From Nesterenkonia aurantiaca (lineage in GTDB: Bacteria; Actinomycetota; Actinomycetes; Actinomycetales; Micrococcaceae): DNA of 64,000 nucleotides. The DNA is taken from the NCBI RefSeq assembly GCF_004364585.1, contig NZ_SOAN01000001.1:62001-126000 (forward strand), read 5' to 3'. The notes below the pieces were generated by a model, which worked only from the letters and a program-made list of their open reading frames with translations, searched no databases and was not told the origin of the DNA. Both the position numbers and the translations under genes were made by a program. Of the stretch, positions 17,525 through 25,285 are shown in pieces. Each line of letters begins with the position of its first letter. Position 1 is the first letter of the stretch.

Positions 17525-18214
17525 ATGAGCTCCCCCACCTCGTTCTCCACCACCGCCGACGTTGCCGCGGACAGTTTCGCCGGACAGCTCCGGCTGGCCA
17601 CTTCCGAGGACTGGGATGCCTCGGTGCATCATCGGTTCGTCGAGGAGCTCTTCGCGGGGACACTCAGCGATGCGGTGCTGGCGCGCTATCTGGTGCAGGA
17701 CTACCAGTTCTTCGATGCCTTCGTGGCGATGCTGGGGGCCTGCGTGGCCACCACCGATTCCAAGCCGGCCCGCCTGCGCTTCGCCGCGCAGCTCGGGATG
17801 CTCGCCGCTGATGAGGACGGGTACTTCCAGCAGAGCTTCGCCGAGCTCGGCGTGCCCGCTTCCGATGTTGTCAGCCCTCATCTTGAAGACCCCACGGAGG
17901 AGTTCATCGGACAGATGTGGGAGGTGGCGCGGTCCAGAAACTACGCGGACCTGCTGGTGGTGCTGGTGATCGCGGAGTGGCTGTATCTGGACTGGGGTCA
18001 GCGGGACCTGCTGCTACCCGAGGCGGCGAAACACCGGGACTGGATCGATCTGCACCGCGGCGAGGAGTTTCGGGAGTGGACCCAGTTCCTGATCGATGAG
18101 CTCAACCGGATTGCCCCGTCGCTGGGATCCGAGGACGGCGCGCGCTTGTCCGCACGGTGGACGCGGGTCGTGGCGATCGAGCGGGCGTTCTTCGATGCGG
18201 CGTACGCGTTCTAA
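17525..18214 (+). CDS. tenA: TenA-family protein (TenA_E-like, catalytic Cys absent)
   Basis: A 229-residue all-helical TenA/thiaminase II fold. Recognisable are the N-terminal LVQDYQFFDAF (about 56-66, the Asp-x-x-Phe-x region that binds the pyrimidine) and the C-terminal EEFREWTQFLIDELNRIAPS. In classical TenA the active-site Cys lies in PCxWxY. Here the segment reads VIAEWLYLDWG, with Ala150 then Glu151 and no Cys. That is the TenA_E arrangement, in which Glu replaces Cys and the substrate is a formylaminopyrimidine-type thiamin breakdown product. No thiamin genes are adjacent. The last four bases overlap the stop of the convergent helicase gene. Confidence 0.82.
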   Translation: MSSPTSFSTTADVAADSFAGQLRLATSEDWDASVHHRFVEELFAGTLSDAVLARYLVQDYQFFDAFVAMLGACVATTDSKPARLRFAAQLGMLAADEDGYFQQSFAELGVPASDVVSPHLEDPTEEFIGQMWEVARSRNYADLLVVLVIAEWLYLDWGQRDLLLPEAAKHRDWIDLHRGEEFREWTQFLIDELNRIAPSLGSEDGARLSARWTRVVAIERAFFDAAYAF

Positions 18215-21162
18215 GCCGTCAAGGTGGGGTGGAAGTAATCATAGAGGCTGCGCGGGACAGGTTTGCCGAAACGTAGCAACATTCGAACCACGGGCAATGG
18301 CGCGCCGGTCTTATTTGCCATGGTTGTTTCCTCCGCGTCCTCTGACTGAGCTTGACCAAGGTAAAAGAAGTCGGTCCCATCAGCGTCGTCGCGTTTCACG
18401 AAAACATGGAGATCTACAGAGTTCTCGACGATCGCTCGTACTTCTTTGCTGGCCAGCGAGCGACGGTTTCGGGTGAACCATCTCATGACACTGGGATCAA
18501 TCAACTCATCCTCGTATGCCACGCTCGCCTCGACGTCGTGCTCCTTGTGCAACGTAACGAAGATGGGGCACTGACCTGAAGCAAGATCGGTGCGGTAGCC
18601 GTATATCGTCGATGCGCTGCTGCGATCCCATCCAAGCAGCCGGGCAACGTCCCGTCGGGAGTACCTCATGCCGGGCGTGAAAGGGCGACTCGGCAAGTAG
18701 GCCCGATTGATATGTGTCGCTGTCTTCAGGATGTCATCGACGTAGTTACTGAAAGGCGAATCACTCTTATACGCCTCAACGATGTGCGGGAGCAGTCGTA
18801 GACTCCCGTCTTGGGTGCGCTTCGCGAGTGGGGCACCGTATCGAGCTCGATCTCCCTGGTTGTAGCCCTCCAGAGTGAAGGTGGCCTGGGCGCTCTGGAG
18901 GACCGCTAGTTCTGAAGGGAGCTCCTGATCCGCAACTACTCTGCGCAGTTCGTCTTCAGTGACTTCCCGATTGTCTAAGAGCTCGCGGAGCATGAGCGCC
19001 TCATGCAGCCGTTTGGCCGGCAACACTTCGTGAGACAACAGTTGCAGTGCTCGAGACTCAGCTGAAGTCAGCCCTGATGGCACTTTGAGAGTCCTAGCAA
19101 CGAGCGCGGGAAAATGTTCGAGACGGGTAGCGAGGACCACGGGATCTACCGACTCATTCTCAACGAAGTCCCAGAGCCGGGGCAGCCGACCTAGTCGCTG
19201 TTGGAGCAGTTCGATTTCTTCCCGCAGGCGCCGCAGATGGTCCATCTTGGCGTCAGCGATGGCCCGAAGCACTCGCTCCCGTGCAATTTCATCAAACCGG
19301 ACACTCGACATGCCAGGCAGGACGCCACCTTCCTCGGCGGCGTTCAGGTTCTTCCGCAGAGACTCTTTGTTCAAAGACTTGTCCCCAAATAGGGCAACCG
19401 GGATGAGGTAATTATTCGCATAATTACCAATAAAGTCAATGACTGTTAGGTAGTCTTTGTCTGGTGCTTTTCTTAAACCTCTGCCAAGTTGTTGAACGAA
19501 TACAATTGCCGACTGCGTCTGACGCAGCATGATGACTTGGTTGATGGACGGGATATCGACTCCCTCGTTGAAGATGTCGACTGTAAGTAGATAGTCGAGC
19601 TCTCCCAGTTCCAACTGCCTCACGGCGTTCTCACGCGTCTCAATAGAGTCTTCGCCGGTCAATGCGGTAGTTCGCAAATAGTGACCCCTGATGGAACGCT
19701 GGTTCAACTCTGCCGAGAGAGCATGTGCCTCGTCTTTCCGGCTACAGAACATGAGACCACGGGTTGGGACGCCTTGTTGGGAGTACTTATCGATGGCATC
19801 GATAATGTGCGATGCCCGCTCTGCTCCAGAGAGCCGGTGCAACTCAGTGCGGTCAGACACTGTTGAACCGTCGTGGAAGACTGCGTCAGGAACGCCGAAG
19901 TAGTGGAAGGGGCTGAGCATGTCTGCCTCTAATGCATCATCGAGTCGAATCTCGTAGGCAACGTTGTAATTGAAGAGCTCGTAAACGTCCGTCCCATCGT
20001 TGCGCTCCGGGGTTGCGGTCATCCCCAGCGCGAAGTCTGGCTTGAGATAGTCGAGGACGCGGCGATATGACGCCGCCCCGGCGCGATGCACTTCGTCGAT
20101 GAGTAGGTAGTCAAAGTCGGTGGGCGAAAGCTGTCGCAAGGCATCTGGTTTGGCGAGAGACTGGACGGTGGCGAACACGTACCGCCTGTCCAGTTGTTTG
20201 ACGGTCCCGGCGAGCTTTCCGTAGTCCTCGCTAGGTCCACCCAAAACTCGCTTGTACTCGTCCATCGCCTTGTCCAGAATCTGTTCACGGTGCGCGACGA
20301 ACAGCAGCCTTCGGGGAGAGGCGGACCGTACATCCAGGGCGGACAGGATGGTCATGCCCGTCCCCGTCGCCGAAATGACGAGTGCTCGGTCATGCCCGGC
20401 CACCCGCACTGCCTCGATGGCTTCCAGCGCCTCCGTTTGCATGGCGTTGGGCTGAACCTCCACGCGATCAGCGTCGGTGATTCGAGGATCAGTCATCTCC
20501 TCGTCTGTACGAAGGTCGATCCGAGAGGTGGATCGCGCCTGCATCTTTATCGCGTCGAACGCCTTGCGATATGCCTCGATCCAAGCGGAACTGAGCGGAC
20601 TTGTAGAAGCAAACTCGTTGGCTACCAGCGCGGAAAGCTGGGCGGCCAGCTGACTGTCCGGTCCTGCAGAAACCTTCATGTTCCACTCGTGGTTTCGCGT
20701 CAACGCGGATTCCGTGAGATTCGCACTTCCCACAAGAGCCGTCACGCTCTTGTGACGCTGAAACACGTACCCCTTGGGATGGAATGCCCGGGATCTGTGG
20801 AGCCCCACTTCCACGTCGATCCCGAGGTCCTTCAAATGTAGGAGGTCCTCGAAAGTGTTGGGAGCGTTGAAGTTCAGGTAATTCGAGGTAACGATCCGTC
20901 CGTGGCCGTCGAAATCGAGCAAATCTTGCTTGAGCATCGCCAACGCGCCAGGAGTAATAAAGGCGACTGAGAAGAAAAACGAACGACTCAGTCGGAGTTG
21001 TTCCCGAATGGTGCGCAAGATAGTGGTTCCTCTTTGACGATCATTCAGAACCAGTTCCGGAGAGTATCTCCCCAACATTGTGCCGTCCGCGCTGATAAAC
21101 CCCCGATTGACGTCGCGCGCTAGTTGATTTTCCGCGTGAAACAGATCGGGGCGGTTGATCAT
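18211..21162 (-). CDS. PLD-like / SF2 helicase / DUF3427 protein with altered Walker A
   Basis: A 983-residue multidomain protein. A phospholipase D-like domain (about 45-190) has one HKD-like site, HPKGYVFQ (His128, Lys130) and GSANLTESAL (144-153). An SF2 (UvsW/DEAH-like) helicase follows (about 240-640): Walker B LIDEVH (352-357), motif III GMTATPER, motif VI VQQLGRGLRK. A DUF3427-type C-terminus covers about 680-983. Walker A reads SATGTGMTILSA: the invariant Lys is Met270 (codon ATG at 20353-20355). If real, ATP hydrolysis should be lost. Such proteins are suspected phage-defence or DNA-processing enzymes; the role here is unproven. The gene is less GC-rich than both flanks (an AT-rich patch at 19388-19480), which suggests transfer. 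It overlaps the NUDIX gene by ATGA. Confidence 0.85.
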   Translation of the reverse strand: MINRPDLFHAENQLARDVNRGFISADGTMLGRYSPELVLNDRQRGTTILRTIREQLRLSRSFFFSVAFITPGALAMLKQDLLDFDGHGRIVTSNYLNFNAPNTFEDLLHLKDLGIDVEVGLHRSRAFHPKGYVFQRHKSVTALVGSANLTESALTRNHEWNMKVSAGPDSQLAAQLSALVANEFASTSPLSSAWIEAYRKAFDAIKMQARSTSRIDLRTDEEMTDPRITDADRVEVQPNAMQTEALEAIEAVRVAGHDRALVISATGTGMTILSALDVRSASPRRLLFVAHREQILDKAMDEYKRVLGGPSEDYGKLAGTVKQLDRRYVFATVQSLAKPDALRQLSPTDFDYLLIDEVHRAGAASYRRVLDYLKPDFALGMTATPERNDGTDVYELFNYNVAYEIRLDDALEADMLSPFHYFGVPDAVFHDGSTVSDRTELHRLSGAERASHIIDAIDKYSQQGVPTRGLMFCSRKDEAHALSAELNQRSIRGHYLRTTALTGEDSIETRENAVRQLELGELDYLLTVDIFNEGVDIPSINQVIMLRQTQSAIVFVQQLGRGLRKAPDKDYLTVIDFIGNYANNYLIPVALFGDKSLNKESLRKNLNAAEEGGVLPGMSSVRFDEIARERVLRAIADAKMDHLRRLREEIELLQQRLGRLPRLWDFVENESVDPVVLATRLEHFPALVARTLKVPSGLTSAESRALQLLSHEVLPAKRLHEALMLRELLDNREVTEDELRRVVADQELPSELAVLQSAQATFTLEGYNQGDRARYGAPLAKRTQDGSLRLLPHIVEAYKSDSPFSNYVDDILKTATHINRAYLPSRPFTPGMRYSRRDVARLLGWDRSSASTIYGYRTDLASGQCPIFVTLHKEHDVEASVAYEDELIDPSVMRWFTRNRRSLASKEVRAIVENSVDLHVFVKRDDADGTDFFYLGQAQSEDAEETTMANKTGAPLPVVRMLLRFGKPVPRSLYDYFHPTLTA

Positions 21163-21557
21163 GAGGTGACGGCTCCCCGAATGATCTCAATCGCAGGGAT
21201 GTCCGCAGGAGCCCAGTTGAGGGCCCCTAGGTCACCTGGCCTGAGCCACACAACGTCGGCATGCTCTATCAGCCGCGGTGTGCCCGACATGAGCTCACAG
21301 AAGAAGGTAGTGAGGGTGACGACACCAAAGTCATATTCGTAGGTCGTGGTGGTGATCTTCTTGCCTACCTGAACGGTGCACTCAAGTTCTTCAGTAATTT
21401 CGCGCTGCAGGGCTTCACGCGGAGTTTCACCAGACTCAATCTTCCCGCCTGGGAACTCCCACATGTCGGGCAAACTGCCTTCCGGACCCCGCTGAGCGCA
21501 CAGTATCTTCCCGTCATCGACGATTACTGCGCCTACAACGTTGATTTCCTTTTTCAC
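21159..21557 (-). CDS. NUDIX (MutT/CTP pyrophosphohydrolase-like) hydrolase, partner of the helicase
   Basis: A 132-residue single-domain NUDIX protein. The box is GGKIESGETPREALQREITE followed by EL (GX5EX7REUXEE), and the core begins INVVGAVIVDDGKILCAQR, the MutT/NudG pattern. The likely reaction is hydrolysis of (oxidised or modified) nucleoside triphosphates to monophosphates. The start chosen is GTG at 21557, with AGAGG six bases upstream; an ATG at 21581 lacks such a site. The stop overlaps the helicase ATG (ATGA), so the two proteins are made together. Like its partner it is less GC-rich than the surroundings. Confidence 0.88.
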   Translation of the reverse strand: MKKEINVVGAVIVDDGKILCAQRGPEGSLPDMWEFPGGKIESGETPREALQREITEELECTVQVGKKITTTTYEYDFGVVTLTTFFCELMSGTPRLIEHADVVWLRPGDLGALNWAPADIPAIEIIRGAVTS

Positions 21558-21613
21558 ACGCCCCCTCTGAGAACCATCCATGGTGTTCTGATCATCCTAT
21601 GGAAGTTCTTCCT

Positions 21614-24600
21614 TCACCCGCCGAAATATTGCCGAGCAGCGTAGATGTACTGTCTCAGCGCTTCCTCCCCCGGAAGATCCGTTCCTGGCACGGTCACGCC
21701 GTGCTCGACGTAGAAGAACGACGCTCCGATCTGTTCCAGCGGCACGCCGTAGAGCCGGTGGAAGGCCAGCCGGTAAACCGCCAGCTGGATCTGCTTCTCG
21801 CGCAGGTCCTTGCCGGTAGGCACCATGCCGGTCTTCCAGTCGACCAGGTCCCAGGTGCACTGCTGCATCTGAGCATTCCGGTCCTCCGCCGACTTCAGCT
21901 CCCAGCGCTCGAAGTCAGCCGCGGTGAGGTCCTGCCCGGCGGCGTCCTTGCCGAAGATGGCGTCGATGCGGCCACGGACCACGACACCGTCCAGGGATGT
22001 CTCGACCGGGATCTCTGCCGCGTACAGGCGTCGCTGCGCCCACTCGGTCGCCACGAAGCGTTCCTTGACCGTGGAGAGGTCGAAGGCGTCGTCGAGGTCC
22101 TCGTCGCCTCGGTGCGGCTCCTCGATCCCGGGCAGCCTGCTGCGGGTCTCGTAGAACTCCTCGATCCATTCATGCATGACAGTGCCGCGGCGTGCCGCCT
22201 GGGAGGGTTTCACCGGCACGGGGCGTCGGGCGAACTCGGCCATGGACTCGGCATTGCGGGCCATGCCCACCACGCTTGAGACACTGATGTGCGCCGGGAA
22301 ATGCGGTTTTCCAGTCCCCCGTTGCTGCTCACGCGCCCGGTCGACCACCCATTCGGCCTCCTGCTCCCAAGGAGTCAGCGGTAGAGCCGCCTCACCCTCT
22401 TCGGCGGACGTCGTCTCGCGCTGCGCGCGATCGGCGGTGGCTTGCTCCACCAGCACGGCGGCCCGGGTCAGCGCGGCACGGCGACCGGGCTGGACCTTCG
22501 GAACCTCCACCGTGTTGATCTGCGGCAGCGTGGCCTGCTCGCCCTCTGCCACCTGCCGGCGGTAGCGGCCGATCGGCAGCGGAGCCAGCGGGTCATAGGG
22601 CCACTGTGCGCCGAAGAGGTCGTTGCCCACCGGGTTATCCTTCATATCGGCAACCTCTGCCCACTCCAACGCCGCCGAGGCGTCGCCGAAGCCATCGGCC
22701 ACTTCGCGGATCTCCTCGAGGAACTCTGAGGGTTCCTTGCCGGCGGATGTGCCGTAGAAGCAGGCACCGGTGCACAGCAGAAGCTTCTTCGCGCGCGTCA
22801 CCGCGACATAGGCCAGGCGCCGTTCTTCCTCCCGGCTGAAGTCCTTGACGTCCTGGGTGAAGACCCGGTTGTCCTCGGTGAACTGCTTCCAGTCGCCCAC
22901 GCCCGCCGATACGGCCCAGGAGCGCAGATCGGGTTGCTCGGACTCCCACTGCGGGATGCTGCGGCGATCTCCGCGAAGCCGTGCCGGCAGCATGCCATTG
23001 CTGCCGGTCCACCGGTCGGCCTTCGCGCTGGGGAACTTGTCCTCGCGCAGCCCGGCCACGGCGACCACGTCCCATTCAAGTCCCTTAGACGCGTGGATGG
23101 TCATCAGCTGGATCGCGCCCGGGGTCGGTTCAACATCCGCCTGCTCCAGGCCACGTTCCTTCTCCTGGGCAGCGTCCAGCCAGTCCAGGAAGCTGCGCAG
23201 GTCCGGGGTGGTCTCAGTCGCCGCGTAGCTCTCGGCCTGATCGATCAGCGCGTCCAGCTGACGTGCGGCGTAGTGCTGTTCCTCCCACGGCCGGGCCGCG
23301 ACCTCGATGTCGAGGCCGGTGTCACTGACGATGCGTTGAATCAGCACGCCCAGGTCCAGGGTGGCCCATTGGCGCAGCCGGCGGATCTGTTCCTTGGCCA
23401 GCAGCAACCGACGGTGCCCCTCGGCGGACAGGCCGAGCCGCTCGGCGTGGTCCGGGGAGTCCTTGAGCCGCTCCAACGCTTCGACCAGGGAGGCGCGTTC
23501 GTCCATCTCCAGTTCGGTGGACTCATACCGGTCCTCGGCGTCGGTGACTCCCTCCCCCGACTGCTCGCTGCCCTGAGGCTGCTCGGAGGCGGGGGCGCGC
23601 AGTCGCAGACCCTCCAGATCGCGGGCGGAGCGCTGCAACTGGAGCAGATCGCGAGGGCCGATCCGGTACCGGGCCCCGGCGAGAATCCGGATCAACGCGT
23701 CGGAGCGGCCGGGGTCGGCAATGACCCGTAGGTAGGCGAGCACCTCAGCCACCTCTGAGGTGCTCAGCAGCCCGGAGAGTCCGACCAGCTCGTAGTCCAG
23801 TCCAGCGAGACGCAGCTGCTCGGCGATGGTCTCCAACTGGGCGCGGGTTCGGGCCAGCACCGCGCAGCTCGGGGCAGTATGGTCCGGGTCACGCTCGGCG
23901 TCGAGCTGCAGCACGGCACTGAGCTGTTCGGTGATCGCTTGGGATTCCTCGATGTCTGAGGTGTACCAGCCGTAGCGCACGGTGGCGGTGTGGGCGCCGT
24001 CGGGTGGGCTCAGCGGTTTGAGCTGACCACGCAGGTGCGCGTTGTGCGCGCGCCATGGCTTGTCGAGGGAGTCCGCGGCGTCCGGCGCGAAGGGTGTCAC
24101 CAGCCGGTTCGCGACATCGAGGATCCGCTCGCCGTTGCGCCAGGCGATGGTGAGCTGCAGCAGCGCGGCGGGACGGCGCTGGTCCGTGACGGGGTCCACG
24201 GCGGGGAAGGACTGCGGGAAGTCGAAGAGCTGCCCGGCGGAGGCGCCGCGGAACCCGTAGATCGACTGATTCGGGTCCCCCACGGCGGTGACCGCGTGGC
24301 CCGTCCCGCTACCGGAGCCGCCGGCGCCGAAGAGGCTGCTGAAGAGCGCGAGCTGCGCGTAGGAGGTGTCCTGGAACTCATCAAGCAGCACCACCTTGTA
24401 CTTCTCCCGCTCGGCCTCCCCGGCGCTGGGGACGTCCTGTGCGATCTGGGCGGCGAAGCGCAGCAGGTCCCCGTAGTCCATGAGCCCCTCGCTGAGCTTC
24501 TTCTCCTGATAACGGCGGACCAGCTCGGCCATCTCGCGGCGCACCCGCAGCGCACGGACCAGATCGATCTGCTTGCCCTTGAGCTCGGCGCCGGCTTCCT

Positions 24601-25285
24601 GCCAGGCATCTACTCGGGCCAGCTCGACGTCGAGGTGGGCCTCCACCGCCTCCGGGGACTGCAGGTGCTCGGCGCAGTCTCCGGCCAGGCGCATCACGTA
24701 TCCGGCGAGGTTGCCTGCCGACTGTTCTGCCTCCACGAGGACCTCGGCGCGGTCGTAGGCGCTGACCAATCGGTGGACCAGCTGCCAGGCCTTGGCCTCT
24801 CCAATGAGCTGGGTCTCGGGCTCCAGGCCGATCTGCAGGCCGTATTCGGTCACCAGCGTGTTCGCGTAGGAGTGATAGGTGGAGACCGCGGGGGCGAGCA
24901 GCTCGGAGATGTCGGCGTGCTCCACGGTGTCGGAGACCTCGACGGGCACCACATCGGCCGGGGAGATCAGCTCCGCCTCCAGCAGCTGCTCGAGCTTCCG
25001 GGTGATTCGTTCACGCAGCTCTCCGGCGGCCTTCTTGGTGAAGGTCACCCCGAGGATCTGGTCCGGACGCACGATCCCGTTGGCGACCAGCCAGACCACG
25101 CGGTCGGCCATGGTGGCGGTCTTGCCCGACCCGGCACCAGCGACGACGAGCATCGGGGCCAACCCGGATTCGATCACGGCCTGCTGTTCGGCAGTGGGGT
25201 AATGCCGGTGCTCGGCGGGGGTGTCCCGCTGAAGCGCATCAGCGATGTCACGGGCGCTGTAGCGCATGGTCTCCAGAGTCATCAT
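21614..25285 (-). CDS. adnB: AdnB-type helicase-nuclease subunit
   Basis: A 1223-residue UvrD/RecB-like motor with a C-terminal RecB-family nuclease. Motif I is VVAGAGSGKTATMADR (49-56 core), motif Ia LGVTFTKKAAGELRER, motif II VVLLDEFQDTSYAQ, and motif VI EERRLAYVAVTRAKKLLL. The nuclease core is visible near the C-terminus: GRIDAIFG, DLVDWKTGM and KQIQLAVYRLAF. AdnA-AdnB is the actinobacterial enzyme that resects double-strand breaks. The first ATG is used; it overlaps the adnA stop as ATGA. The NUDIX/helicase pair follows after a short gap. Confidence 0.93.
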   Translation of the reverse strand: MMTLETMRYSARDIADALQRDTPAEHRHYPTAEQQAVIESGLAPMLVVAGAGSGKTATMADRVVWLVANGIVRPDQILGVTFTKKAAGELRERITRKLEQLLEAELISPADVVPVEVSDTVEHADISELLAPAVSTYHSYANTLVTEYGLQIGLEPETQLIGEAKAWQLVHRLVSAYDRAEVLVEAEQSAGNLAGYVMRLAGDCAEHLQSPEAVEAHLDVELARVDAWQEAGAELKGKQIDLVRALRVRREMAELVRRYQEKKLSEGLMDYGDLLRFAAQIAQDVPSAGEAEREKYKVVLLDEFQDTSYAQLALFSSLFGAGGSGSGTGHAVTAVGDPNQSIYGFRGASAGQLFDFPQSFPAVDPVTDQRRPAALLQLTIAWRNGERILDVANRLVTPFAPDAADSLDKPWRAHNAHLRGQLKPLSPPDGAHTATVRYGWYTSDIEESQAITEQLSAVLQLDAERDPDHTAPSCAVLARTRAQLETIAEQLRLAGLDYELVGLSGLLSTSEVAEVLAYLRVIADPGRSDALIRILAGARYRIGPRDLLQLQRSARDLEGLRLRAPASEQPQGSEQSGEGVTDAEDRYESTELEMDERASLVEALERLKDSPDHAERLGLSAEGHRRLLLAKEQIRRLRQWATLDLGVLIQRIVSDTGLDIEVAARPWEEQHYAARQLDALIDQAESYAATETTPDLRSFLDWLDAAQEKERGLEQADVEPTPGAIQLMTIHASKGLEWDVVAVAGLREDKFPSAKADRWTGSNGMLPARLRGDRRSIPQWESEQPDLRSWAVSAGVGDWKQFTEDNRVFTQDVKDFSREEERRLAYVAVTRAKKLLLCTGACFYGTSAGKEPSEFLEEIREVADGFGDASAALEWAEVADMKDNPVGNDLFGAQWPYDPLAPLPIGRYRRQVAEGEQATLPQINTVEVPKVQPGRRAALTRAAVLVEQATADRAQRETTSAEEGEAALPLTPWEQEAEWVVDRAREQQRGTGKPHFPAHISVSSVVGMARNAESMAEFARRPVPVKPSQAARRGTVMHEWIEEFYETRSRLPGIEEPHRGDEDLDDAFDLSTVKERFVATEWAQRRLYAAEIPVETSLDGVVVRGRIDAIFGKDAAGQDLTAADFERWELKSAEDRNAQMQQCTWDLVDWKTGMVPTGKDLREKQIQLAVYRLAFHRLYGVPLEQIGASFFYVEHGVTVPGTDLPGEEALRQYIYAARQYFGG

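Follow-up and report, generated by a model that had tools for sequence, protein, structure and literature searches.

The locus examined here raises the question of why a gene for a large, nuclease-like helicase and a gene for a small NUDIX hydrolase are encoded together, and what the two proteins would do as a unit. It lies in a stretch of 64,000 nucleotides from Nesterenkonia aurantiaca (contig NZ_SOAN01000001.1, positions 62,001 to 126,000 of the forward strand), referred to here as the window. An initial annotation, made from the sequence alone, had described a two-gene island of low guanine-plus-cytosine (GC) content, and indeed two overlapping minus-strand open reading frames of about 56% GC stand between flanks of 66-68%; the ATGA overlap that had been claimed can be read in the sequence, with the NUDIX gene upstream and the nuclease gene downstream. 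The large protein belongs by homology to a nuclease family that attacks 5-methylcytosine (5mC) and 5-hydroxymethylcytosine (5hmC) in DNA, and a relative of the NUDIX protein destroys the same two bases as triphosphates. For this reason we lean towards regarding the pair as a type IV restriction module, directed at modified bases, that has its own enzyme for cleaning the nucleotide pool and so would spare the host from restricting its own DNA.

The SauUSI-like protein and its NUDIX partner

The features of the pair are:
18211..21162, minus strand: homologue of the SauUSI family of type IV (5mC/5hmC-dependent) restriction enzymes, 983 amino acids (7clg_A, PADLOC mREase_IV)
20548..21129, minus strand: nuclease domain of the PLD type, spanning roughly residues 12-205, with PLDc_2 at 89-175 and the HxK residues H128/K130
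20350..20373, minus strand: Walker A motif of the SF2 ATPase, with Met at the Lys position (alignment, Lys in 9/9 others)
18235..18672, minus strand: C-terminal target-recognition region (SRA fold in SauUSI), about residues 831-976, within DUF3427 (7clg alignment)
21159..21581, minus strand: NUDIX hydrolase (PADLOC PDC-S07, NudG-like), 140 amino acids from ATG (PDC-S07, 5x1x, 3gwy)

Judged by its sequence, the "helicase" of the pair is homologous over its full length to the type IV restriction enzyme SauUSI. Its alignment with the SauUSI chain 7clg_A covers residues 12-976 (965 of 983 aligned, E 1.3e-214), and a defence-database comparison, as the initial annotation had proposed, returned mREase_IV, PADLOC's model of methyl-directed type IV restriction enzymes, at E 3.8e-213 for the large protein and the candidate PDC-S07 at E 1.1e-53 for the small one. 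As identities, a generic SF2 helicase and RadD or the type I subunit HsdR were rejected, the curated matches covering only the ATPase and PLD parts and lying far below their cut-offs. In its structural report, SauUSI is described as an enzyme in which a PLD nuclease precedes a translocating ATPase of the SF2 type, a coupler and the SRA domain, and which cleaves near S-5mC-N-G-S, where the base may be 5mC or 5hmC, shreds the DNA and requires ATP hydrolysis; the target-recognition domain has the SRA fold, and the residues of its 5mC pocket are reported (PMC7913695). A single SauUSI polypeptide suffices for restriction in Escherichia coli and is active alone in vitro (PMC3874153).

The window protein has the same domain order, the HxK motif and most of the pocket residues. 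Pfam finds PLDc_2, ResIII, Helicase_C and DUF3427 (709-977) in it, and NUDIX in the small protein; since the DUF3427 match spans the coupler and the SRA domain, DUF3427 is not a domain of unknown nature in this protein. H128 and K130, which align to H119 and K121 of SauUSI, are invariant in 10/10 aligned sequences. The 5mC-contacting residues Y831, F841, D858 and W868 of SauUSI are identical in the large protein, while I842 is replaced by Val and M829 by Tyr in the 7clg alignment, so that four of the five residues modelled on the flipped base are conserved (Y, F, D, W) and the fifth is Val for Ile. The window copy differs from SauUSI in that the Glu of HxK(x)4E is Gln and the Lys of Walker A is Met, the latter position being Lys in the nine other aligned sequences. 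Because SauUSI needs ATP hydrolysis, the window nuclease may be inactive; it is probably unable to hydrolyse ATP, unless the draft sequence is wrong at Walker A. The unit may thus be crippled, yet the large protein is a member of the SauUSI family by descent. Apart from Walker A, both genes are under purifying selection relative to the nearest relative (dN/dS about 0.07 for each). The wording "repaired unit" in the initial annotation had hinted at a lesion, although the Met itself was not mentioned there.

For the small protein, the nearest solved chains are 5x1x ("Mutator mutT protein", E 5.2e-45) and, in second place, 3gwy from Bacteroides fragilis (E 5.4e-23), with CTP-pyrophosphohydrolase chains also among the near matches. 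The best curated model is NudG-like but below its cut-off (PRK10546, 107 bits versus 156), and MutT models are similar as well. The NUDIX-box residues G45 G46, E52, R60 E61 and E64 E65 are invariant in the alignment with relatives. Asp127, in a PAD motif, stands where MutT has Asn, as it does in NudG; in MutT this Asn reads the base. NudG and the B. fragilis protein Q5LBB1 (3GWY), both 5-methyl-dCTP pyrophosphatases, thus have the NUDIX box and the PAD-motif Asp in common with the window protein, which differs from NudG in lying below the NudG equivalog cut-off. For 3GWY, assays gave a kcat/Km of 4.8e6 per M per s with 5-methyl-dCTP (5-Me-dCTP) and of 4.4e6 with 5-hydroxymethyl-dCTP (5-hm-dCTP), so that the two are not told apart, and a roughly 50-fold lower value with 5-OH-dCTP (PMC5158307); for NudG, 3e5 is reported for 5-Me-dCTP (PMC3744803). 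A Bacteroidota NUDIX that is itself paired with SauUSI matches 3GWY at E 2.5e-39. By analogy with these relatives, the substrates of the paired NUDIX would be 5-Me-dCTP and 5-hm-dCTP, and of the roles suggested initially, the clearing of modified nucleotides by the NUDIX is the best fit. PDC-S07, as far as the accessible literature goes, is a candidate without a mechanism in print; here it is a partner of modified-cytosine restriction enzymes. The start of the NUDIX gene is more likely GTG 21557 than ATG 21581, because many relatives begin with MKK.

Recurrence of the pair and other partners of the NUDIX

The initial annotation had taken the pairing to be recurrent and proposed a neighbourhood search, which bore the recurrence out. 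A scan of named genomes with the SauUSI alignment confirmed at least 579 relatives, and at 70 of the best 80 loci, which were kept, a NUDIX match lies within 250 bp, although at L188 it is a mere fragment at the contig end. By best hit, the NUDIX is upstream and co-directional at 60 of these loci and downstream and convergent at 10, and only two further NUDIX matches occur elsewhere in about 708 kb of flank. According to the record titles, the hosts include Actinomycetota, Bacillota, Bacteroidota and one Bathyarchaeota metagenome-assembled genome; the pair is also found on a plasmid of Lactiplantibacillus plantarum. In a phylum sample, DUF3427 is present in 40/396 genomes, and all six strong DUF3427 loci that were read have the NUDIX, as in the window. 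A sharp split of DUF3427 into classes, with the NUDIX only in the SauUSI-type class, failed outside this sample. Divergent SauUSI-like genes with a NUDIX occur at L280, L284, L304 and L318.

The nuclease tree was computed with FastTree without L173 and L174, with L188 labelled NUDIX-less despite its fragment; the NUDIX tree omits L188, which is too short, and the second copies L265, L274 and L295, and its rows have few columns. The starred branches force at least 8 changes involving the convergent arrangement in the nuclease tree and, with the few columns available, at least 4 in the NUDIX tree, which suggests that the two arrangements interconverted several times. Distances between NUDIX proteins correlate with those between nucleases (r 0.62 over 79 pairs, permutation maximum 0.17).

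The adjacency itself has been recorded in print. SauUSI and MutT are neighbours in Streptococcus in a figure legend (Bell et al. 2020, PMC7641849), and in S. suis PDC-S07 co-localises with type IV restriction in 23/23 cases (PMC12813430); in their accessible parts, neither source proposes a mechanism. Our literature searches, with bioRxiv and many subscription papers outside their coverage, found no proposed mechanism for the pairing and nothing on Nudix with McrBC and type IV restriction, on MutT as a neighbouring gene of a 5-methylcytosine restriction endonuclease, or on a PADLOC embedded phage-defence candidate; SauUSI and Nudix appeared together in an unrelated co-mention only.

The NUDIX also has other partners. 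A NUDIX-led survey of 297 genomes of the order gave 35 matches at E 1e-38; of the 30 loci read, 23 adjoin a SauUSI-like gene. At L274/L241 the NUDIX stands by McrB, McrC and NucS-like genes and, convergently, by an SRA-like gene; at L292 it directly follows an SRA-like gene on the same strand with a 4-nt overlap; at L291 it is near HNH_2 and MutH-like genes; and two of the 30 loci are beside none of these partners. In L287, L288 (1495-3381) the NUDIX is directly upstream of a DUF6119 gene (Pfam on L287 only); to our knowledge, DUF6119 is a family of unknown function. The second survey covered 398 genomes from the phylum to which an Oceanobacillus locus belongs and gave 44 matches, with 12 of 30 loci read adjoining SauUSI-like genes. 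At L303 the NUDIX is flanked by GmrSD on one side and an SRA-like gene on the other, all in the same strand; at L315 it adjoins a DUF2357-PDDEXK_7 (McrC-type) gene; and 16 of the 30 lack any searched-for partner, their neighbours being outside the Pfam scan. Among the ten best PDC-S07 matches of the phylum sample, seven are in SauUSI pairs and three in genomes without DUF3427, one of which is the McrBC case.

The SRA-like genes match SAD_SRA weakly (L241 E 0.0094, L303 E 0.00038) or, at L292, not at all. The AlphaFold model of the L292 protein is itself weak (pLDDT 50, TM-scores of the matches only 0.2-0.4), and all 11 of its PDB matches at E <=0.001 are MspJI, ScoMcrA, SUVH9 or KRYPTONITE, which we take to be SRA-bearing proteins (some are so named in their entries). 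What several partners seem to share is the reading of modified cytosine, not the type of nuclease; since relatives of the NUDIX stand by McrBC, an SRA-like gene and GmrSD, with one locus for each of these cases, the NUDIX may follow the modified base rather than the nuclease.

A DCTPP1-like MazG gene occurs in tandem with the pair at four of the 80 named loci and on one plasmid. As a regular third gene it was rejected: by coordinates, the 30 NUDIX loci coincide with none of the 62 places listed for PF12643 in the order sample. Instead, such a DCTPP1-like gene (PF12643, about 109 amino acids) adjoins a Schlafen-g3 helicase gene at 18 of 20 loci read (L404-L423), and for these two reasons MazG is not counted as part of the unit. 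GIY-YIG was found in one scanned Schlafen-g3 helicase gene, and DCTPP1-like MazG with a GIY-YIG/Schlafen-g3 helicase looks like a separate module of a dCTP pyrophosphatase and a nuclease-helicase. It resembles the pair in placing a dCTP-pyrophosphatase-type gene by a nuclease-helicase, but its fold and partner are unrelated to those of the NUDIX-SauUSI pair and it is a separate unit in the order sample. At L242:1951-4361, a divergent NUDIX reading frame directly follows a Schlafen-g3 helicase gene matching the PADLOC candidate PDC-S41.

A proposed nucleotide-pool cleaner and the alternatives

If the pair combines restriction with pool cleaning, its action can be pictured as follows. By homology, the SauUSI-type enzyme would read 5mC or 5hmC in incoming DNA through its SRA domain and then cut and shred the modified DNA using ATP. 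The level of 5-Me-dCTP or 5-hm-dCTP might then rise from the shredded methylated DNA, from salvage or from a phage making a modified-cytosine nucleotide, and polymerases would insert these nucleotides into the host chromosome, creating targets for the cell's own nuclease. The NUDIX would hydrolyse them to monophosphates and thereby prevent their entry into host DNA; were it missing, the host would be expected to come under attack from its own nuclease. The NUDIX may in addition starve modified phages of their precursor. Its usual position, ahead of the nuclease gene, is what one would expect of an antidote. The nuclease is of a known kind, and what we newly propose is its coupling to the hydrolysis of modified nucleotides and the possible spread of this coupling to McrBC, SRA-type and GmrSD systems. 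More tentatively, and with some doubt on our part, unrelated type IV nucleases (SauUSI, McrBC, SRA-nucleases, GmrSD) may each have acquired a 5-methyl/hydroxymethyl-dCTP pyrophosphatase against a general cost of autoimmunity, with the DCTPP1-like and GIY-YIG/Schlafen-helicase module as a parallel of the same logic in another fold.

Several observations weigh against pool cleaning. SauUSI alone suffices in E. coli (PMC3874153), although this host has NudG, which might stand in for the partner. The best 3GWY substrate in the accessible table is the ribonucleotide 5-Me-CTP (6.7e6, PMC5158307), weak 5-Me-dCTP activity is reported for MutT too in the accessible part of PMC3744803, and no assay of any paired NUDIX was found in the literature. 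Nor is the NUDIX found wherever the nuclease is. Ten of the 80 SauUSI loci have no nearby NUDIX: L138 at a contig end, L187 on a short contig, L148 and L155, which we take to be Staphylococcaceae, and six of Lactobacillaceae (L151, L169, L177, L181, L183, L185). Nine of these ten genomes were searched: four (L138, L148, L155, L187) have a strong NUDIX on another contig, which in L187 is near the contig end, so that linkage to the nuclease is possible, and the five searched Lactobacillaceae match PDC-S07 only weakly (best E 1.7e-5 to 5.8e-14) while retaining a long SauUSI reading frame. Other Lactobacillaceae (L163, L182, L186) do have the NUDIX by SauUSI. In the phylum sample, none of the 14 loci read among 34 weaker, more distant DUF3427 loci has the NUDIX; conversely, a PDC-S07-like NUDIX is found in 172/396 genomes (E 1e-12) as opposed to 40/396 for DUF3427, and of the 165 NUDIX sequences in the tree, 44 lack a neighbour of this kind. 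Finally, exclusion of C5-methyltransferases by the nuclease was rejected, as they are not significantly rarer in genus carriers of the pair (1/5 versus 11/25, Fisher p 0.62).

Four other explanations were considered. The same substrate evidence from 3GWY, and the single cases by other type IV families, could also mean that the NUDIX is purely offensive, destroying 5-hm-dCTP and 5-Me-dCTP made by the phage and forcing the use of ordinary cytosine, with no role in self-protection; a review brings up the idea that phages might be detected through a host pool that has been converted to 5hmdCTP (PMC12707154). We consider this unlikely, if worth keeping in view: it leaves unexplained why the NUDIX is usually upstream, overlapping the nuclease gene in the window, and what it would add where the neighbouring nuclease attacks such phages anyway. 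Still less probable is generic housecleaning, in which a MutT-type enzyme for oxidised nucleotides travels with the nuclease, for example limiting mutation after DNA damage. The similarity to MutT models speaks for it, as does the labelling of these genes as "DNA repair" and MutT homologues in Bell et al. 2020 (PMC7641849), whereas the best curated model is NudG-like (below cut-off), Asp replaces the Asn of MutT, and several partners have modified-cytosine readers in common rather than a theme of damage. Of the anti-phage or DNA-quality-control role suggested initially, the defence-type unit was borne out, while nothing was found for DNA quality control.

That the NUDIX regulates the nuclease, whether through contact between the two proteins or through hydrolysis of a signalling nucleotide, would agree with the ATGA coupling and with the distance correlation, though shared ancestry alone would give that correlation too; SauUSI is active alone in vitro (PMC3874153), the NUDIX relatives accompany unrelated nucleases and the NUDIX-box residues are conserved, which makes regulation improbable. 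The notion of a mere passenger, a gene frequent in defence islands, has in its favour that the NUDIX is listed as a defence candidate and that the site is variable among relatives. It is already disfavoured, and we give it hardly any weight: 70 of the 80 loci have the NUDIX within 250 bp, against two other matches in about 708 kb of flank, and both arrangements occur. If the proposed pool cleaning is correct, it would explain a very common neighbour gene of SauUSI, give PDC-S07 a function and make it possible to test by what means a cell that possesses a 5mC-cutting nuclease is protected against recycled modified bases; SauUSI-type enzymes, described as self-sufficient, would need a guard of the nucleotide pool in their native hosts. 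A NUDIX partner is not mentioned for SauUSI in the accessible part of PMC7913695, in which respect the window copy, having one, differs.

The tenA-adnB site

The pair is flanked by two genes, whose names are taken from the initial annotation:
17525..18214, plus strand: tenA-like gene, edge of the slot (context)
21614..25285, minus strand: adnB-like gene, other edge of the slot (context)

The location given initially was confirmed, but it is not universal in the genus. Some match to the large protein is found in 24/30 genus genomes, a full-length one in only 5/30; all five full-length copies have an adjacent NUDIX. Three lie between tenA and adnB and one between a major facilitator superfamily gene and adnB, and in G025 the copy lies close to where the contig begins, adnB being absent from the 9 kb that were read. 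The composition is likewise unmatched to the flanks. The NUDIX and nuclease genes have 56.3% GC (62-65% at the third position) compared with 65.7% in tenA and 68.0% in adnB (85-86% at the third position), and in a 1-kb profile of the whole window values of 54-59% are confined to the pair locus. In four genus relatives with the pair its GC is 53-61%, with flanks of 64-69% in the three where these were measured. Relative to the nearest relative, dS is 1.36 and 0.86 for the pair and 0.38 for adnB, and this higher dS fits exchange rather than strict vertical descent.

Six relatives in which the tenA side was read have other content at the site, and the slot looks like a variable defence hotspot. 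A HNH_2 protein of about 310 amino acids occupies it in L050:3853-4788, L055:3647-4576 and L058:9262-10203; its gene is cut by the contig end in L054 and broken in frame in L056. The L050 protein bears a distant resemblance to restriction enzymes for phosphorothioate DNA (NCBIfam E 4.6e-17, short of the cut-off) and is possibly another modification-dependent nuclease; the HNH protein of the slot has no solved relative by sequence, and its AlphaFold model is too poor to use (pLDDT 39). In L053:1-9252, where adnB was not reached, genes for a C5-cytosine methyltransferase and an MzaC-like ATPase, among others, occupy the slot next to tenA; such a system would introduce 5mC at a site that in other genomes encodes an enzyme cutting 5mC.

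A phage origin of the unit was rejected. A scan of viral contigs confirmed at least 196 relatives, and among the 80 loci kept, L324 and L325 are the only ones whose match continues beyond residue 670, so that most of those found are other helicases. Among 50,697 phage records, three match the query over 80% or more of its length at one place, and the one that was read is a Staphylococcus aureus contig with the NUDIX present.

Elsewhere in its own genome, the window strain has an McrBC pair of 59-60% GC, lower than most of its neighbours (L426:8433-12178), and may thus possess another 5mC-dependent system. The same genome also carries, away from the window, a DCTPP1-like and Schlafen-g3 helicase pair (L427:10730-12857).
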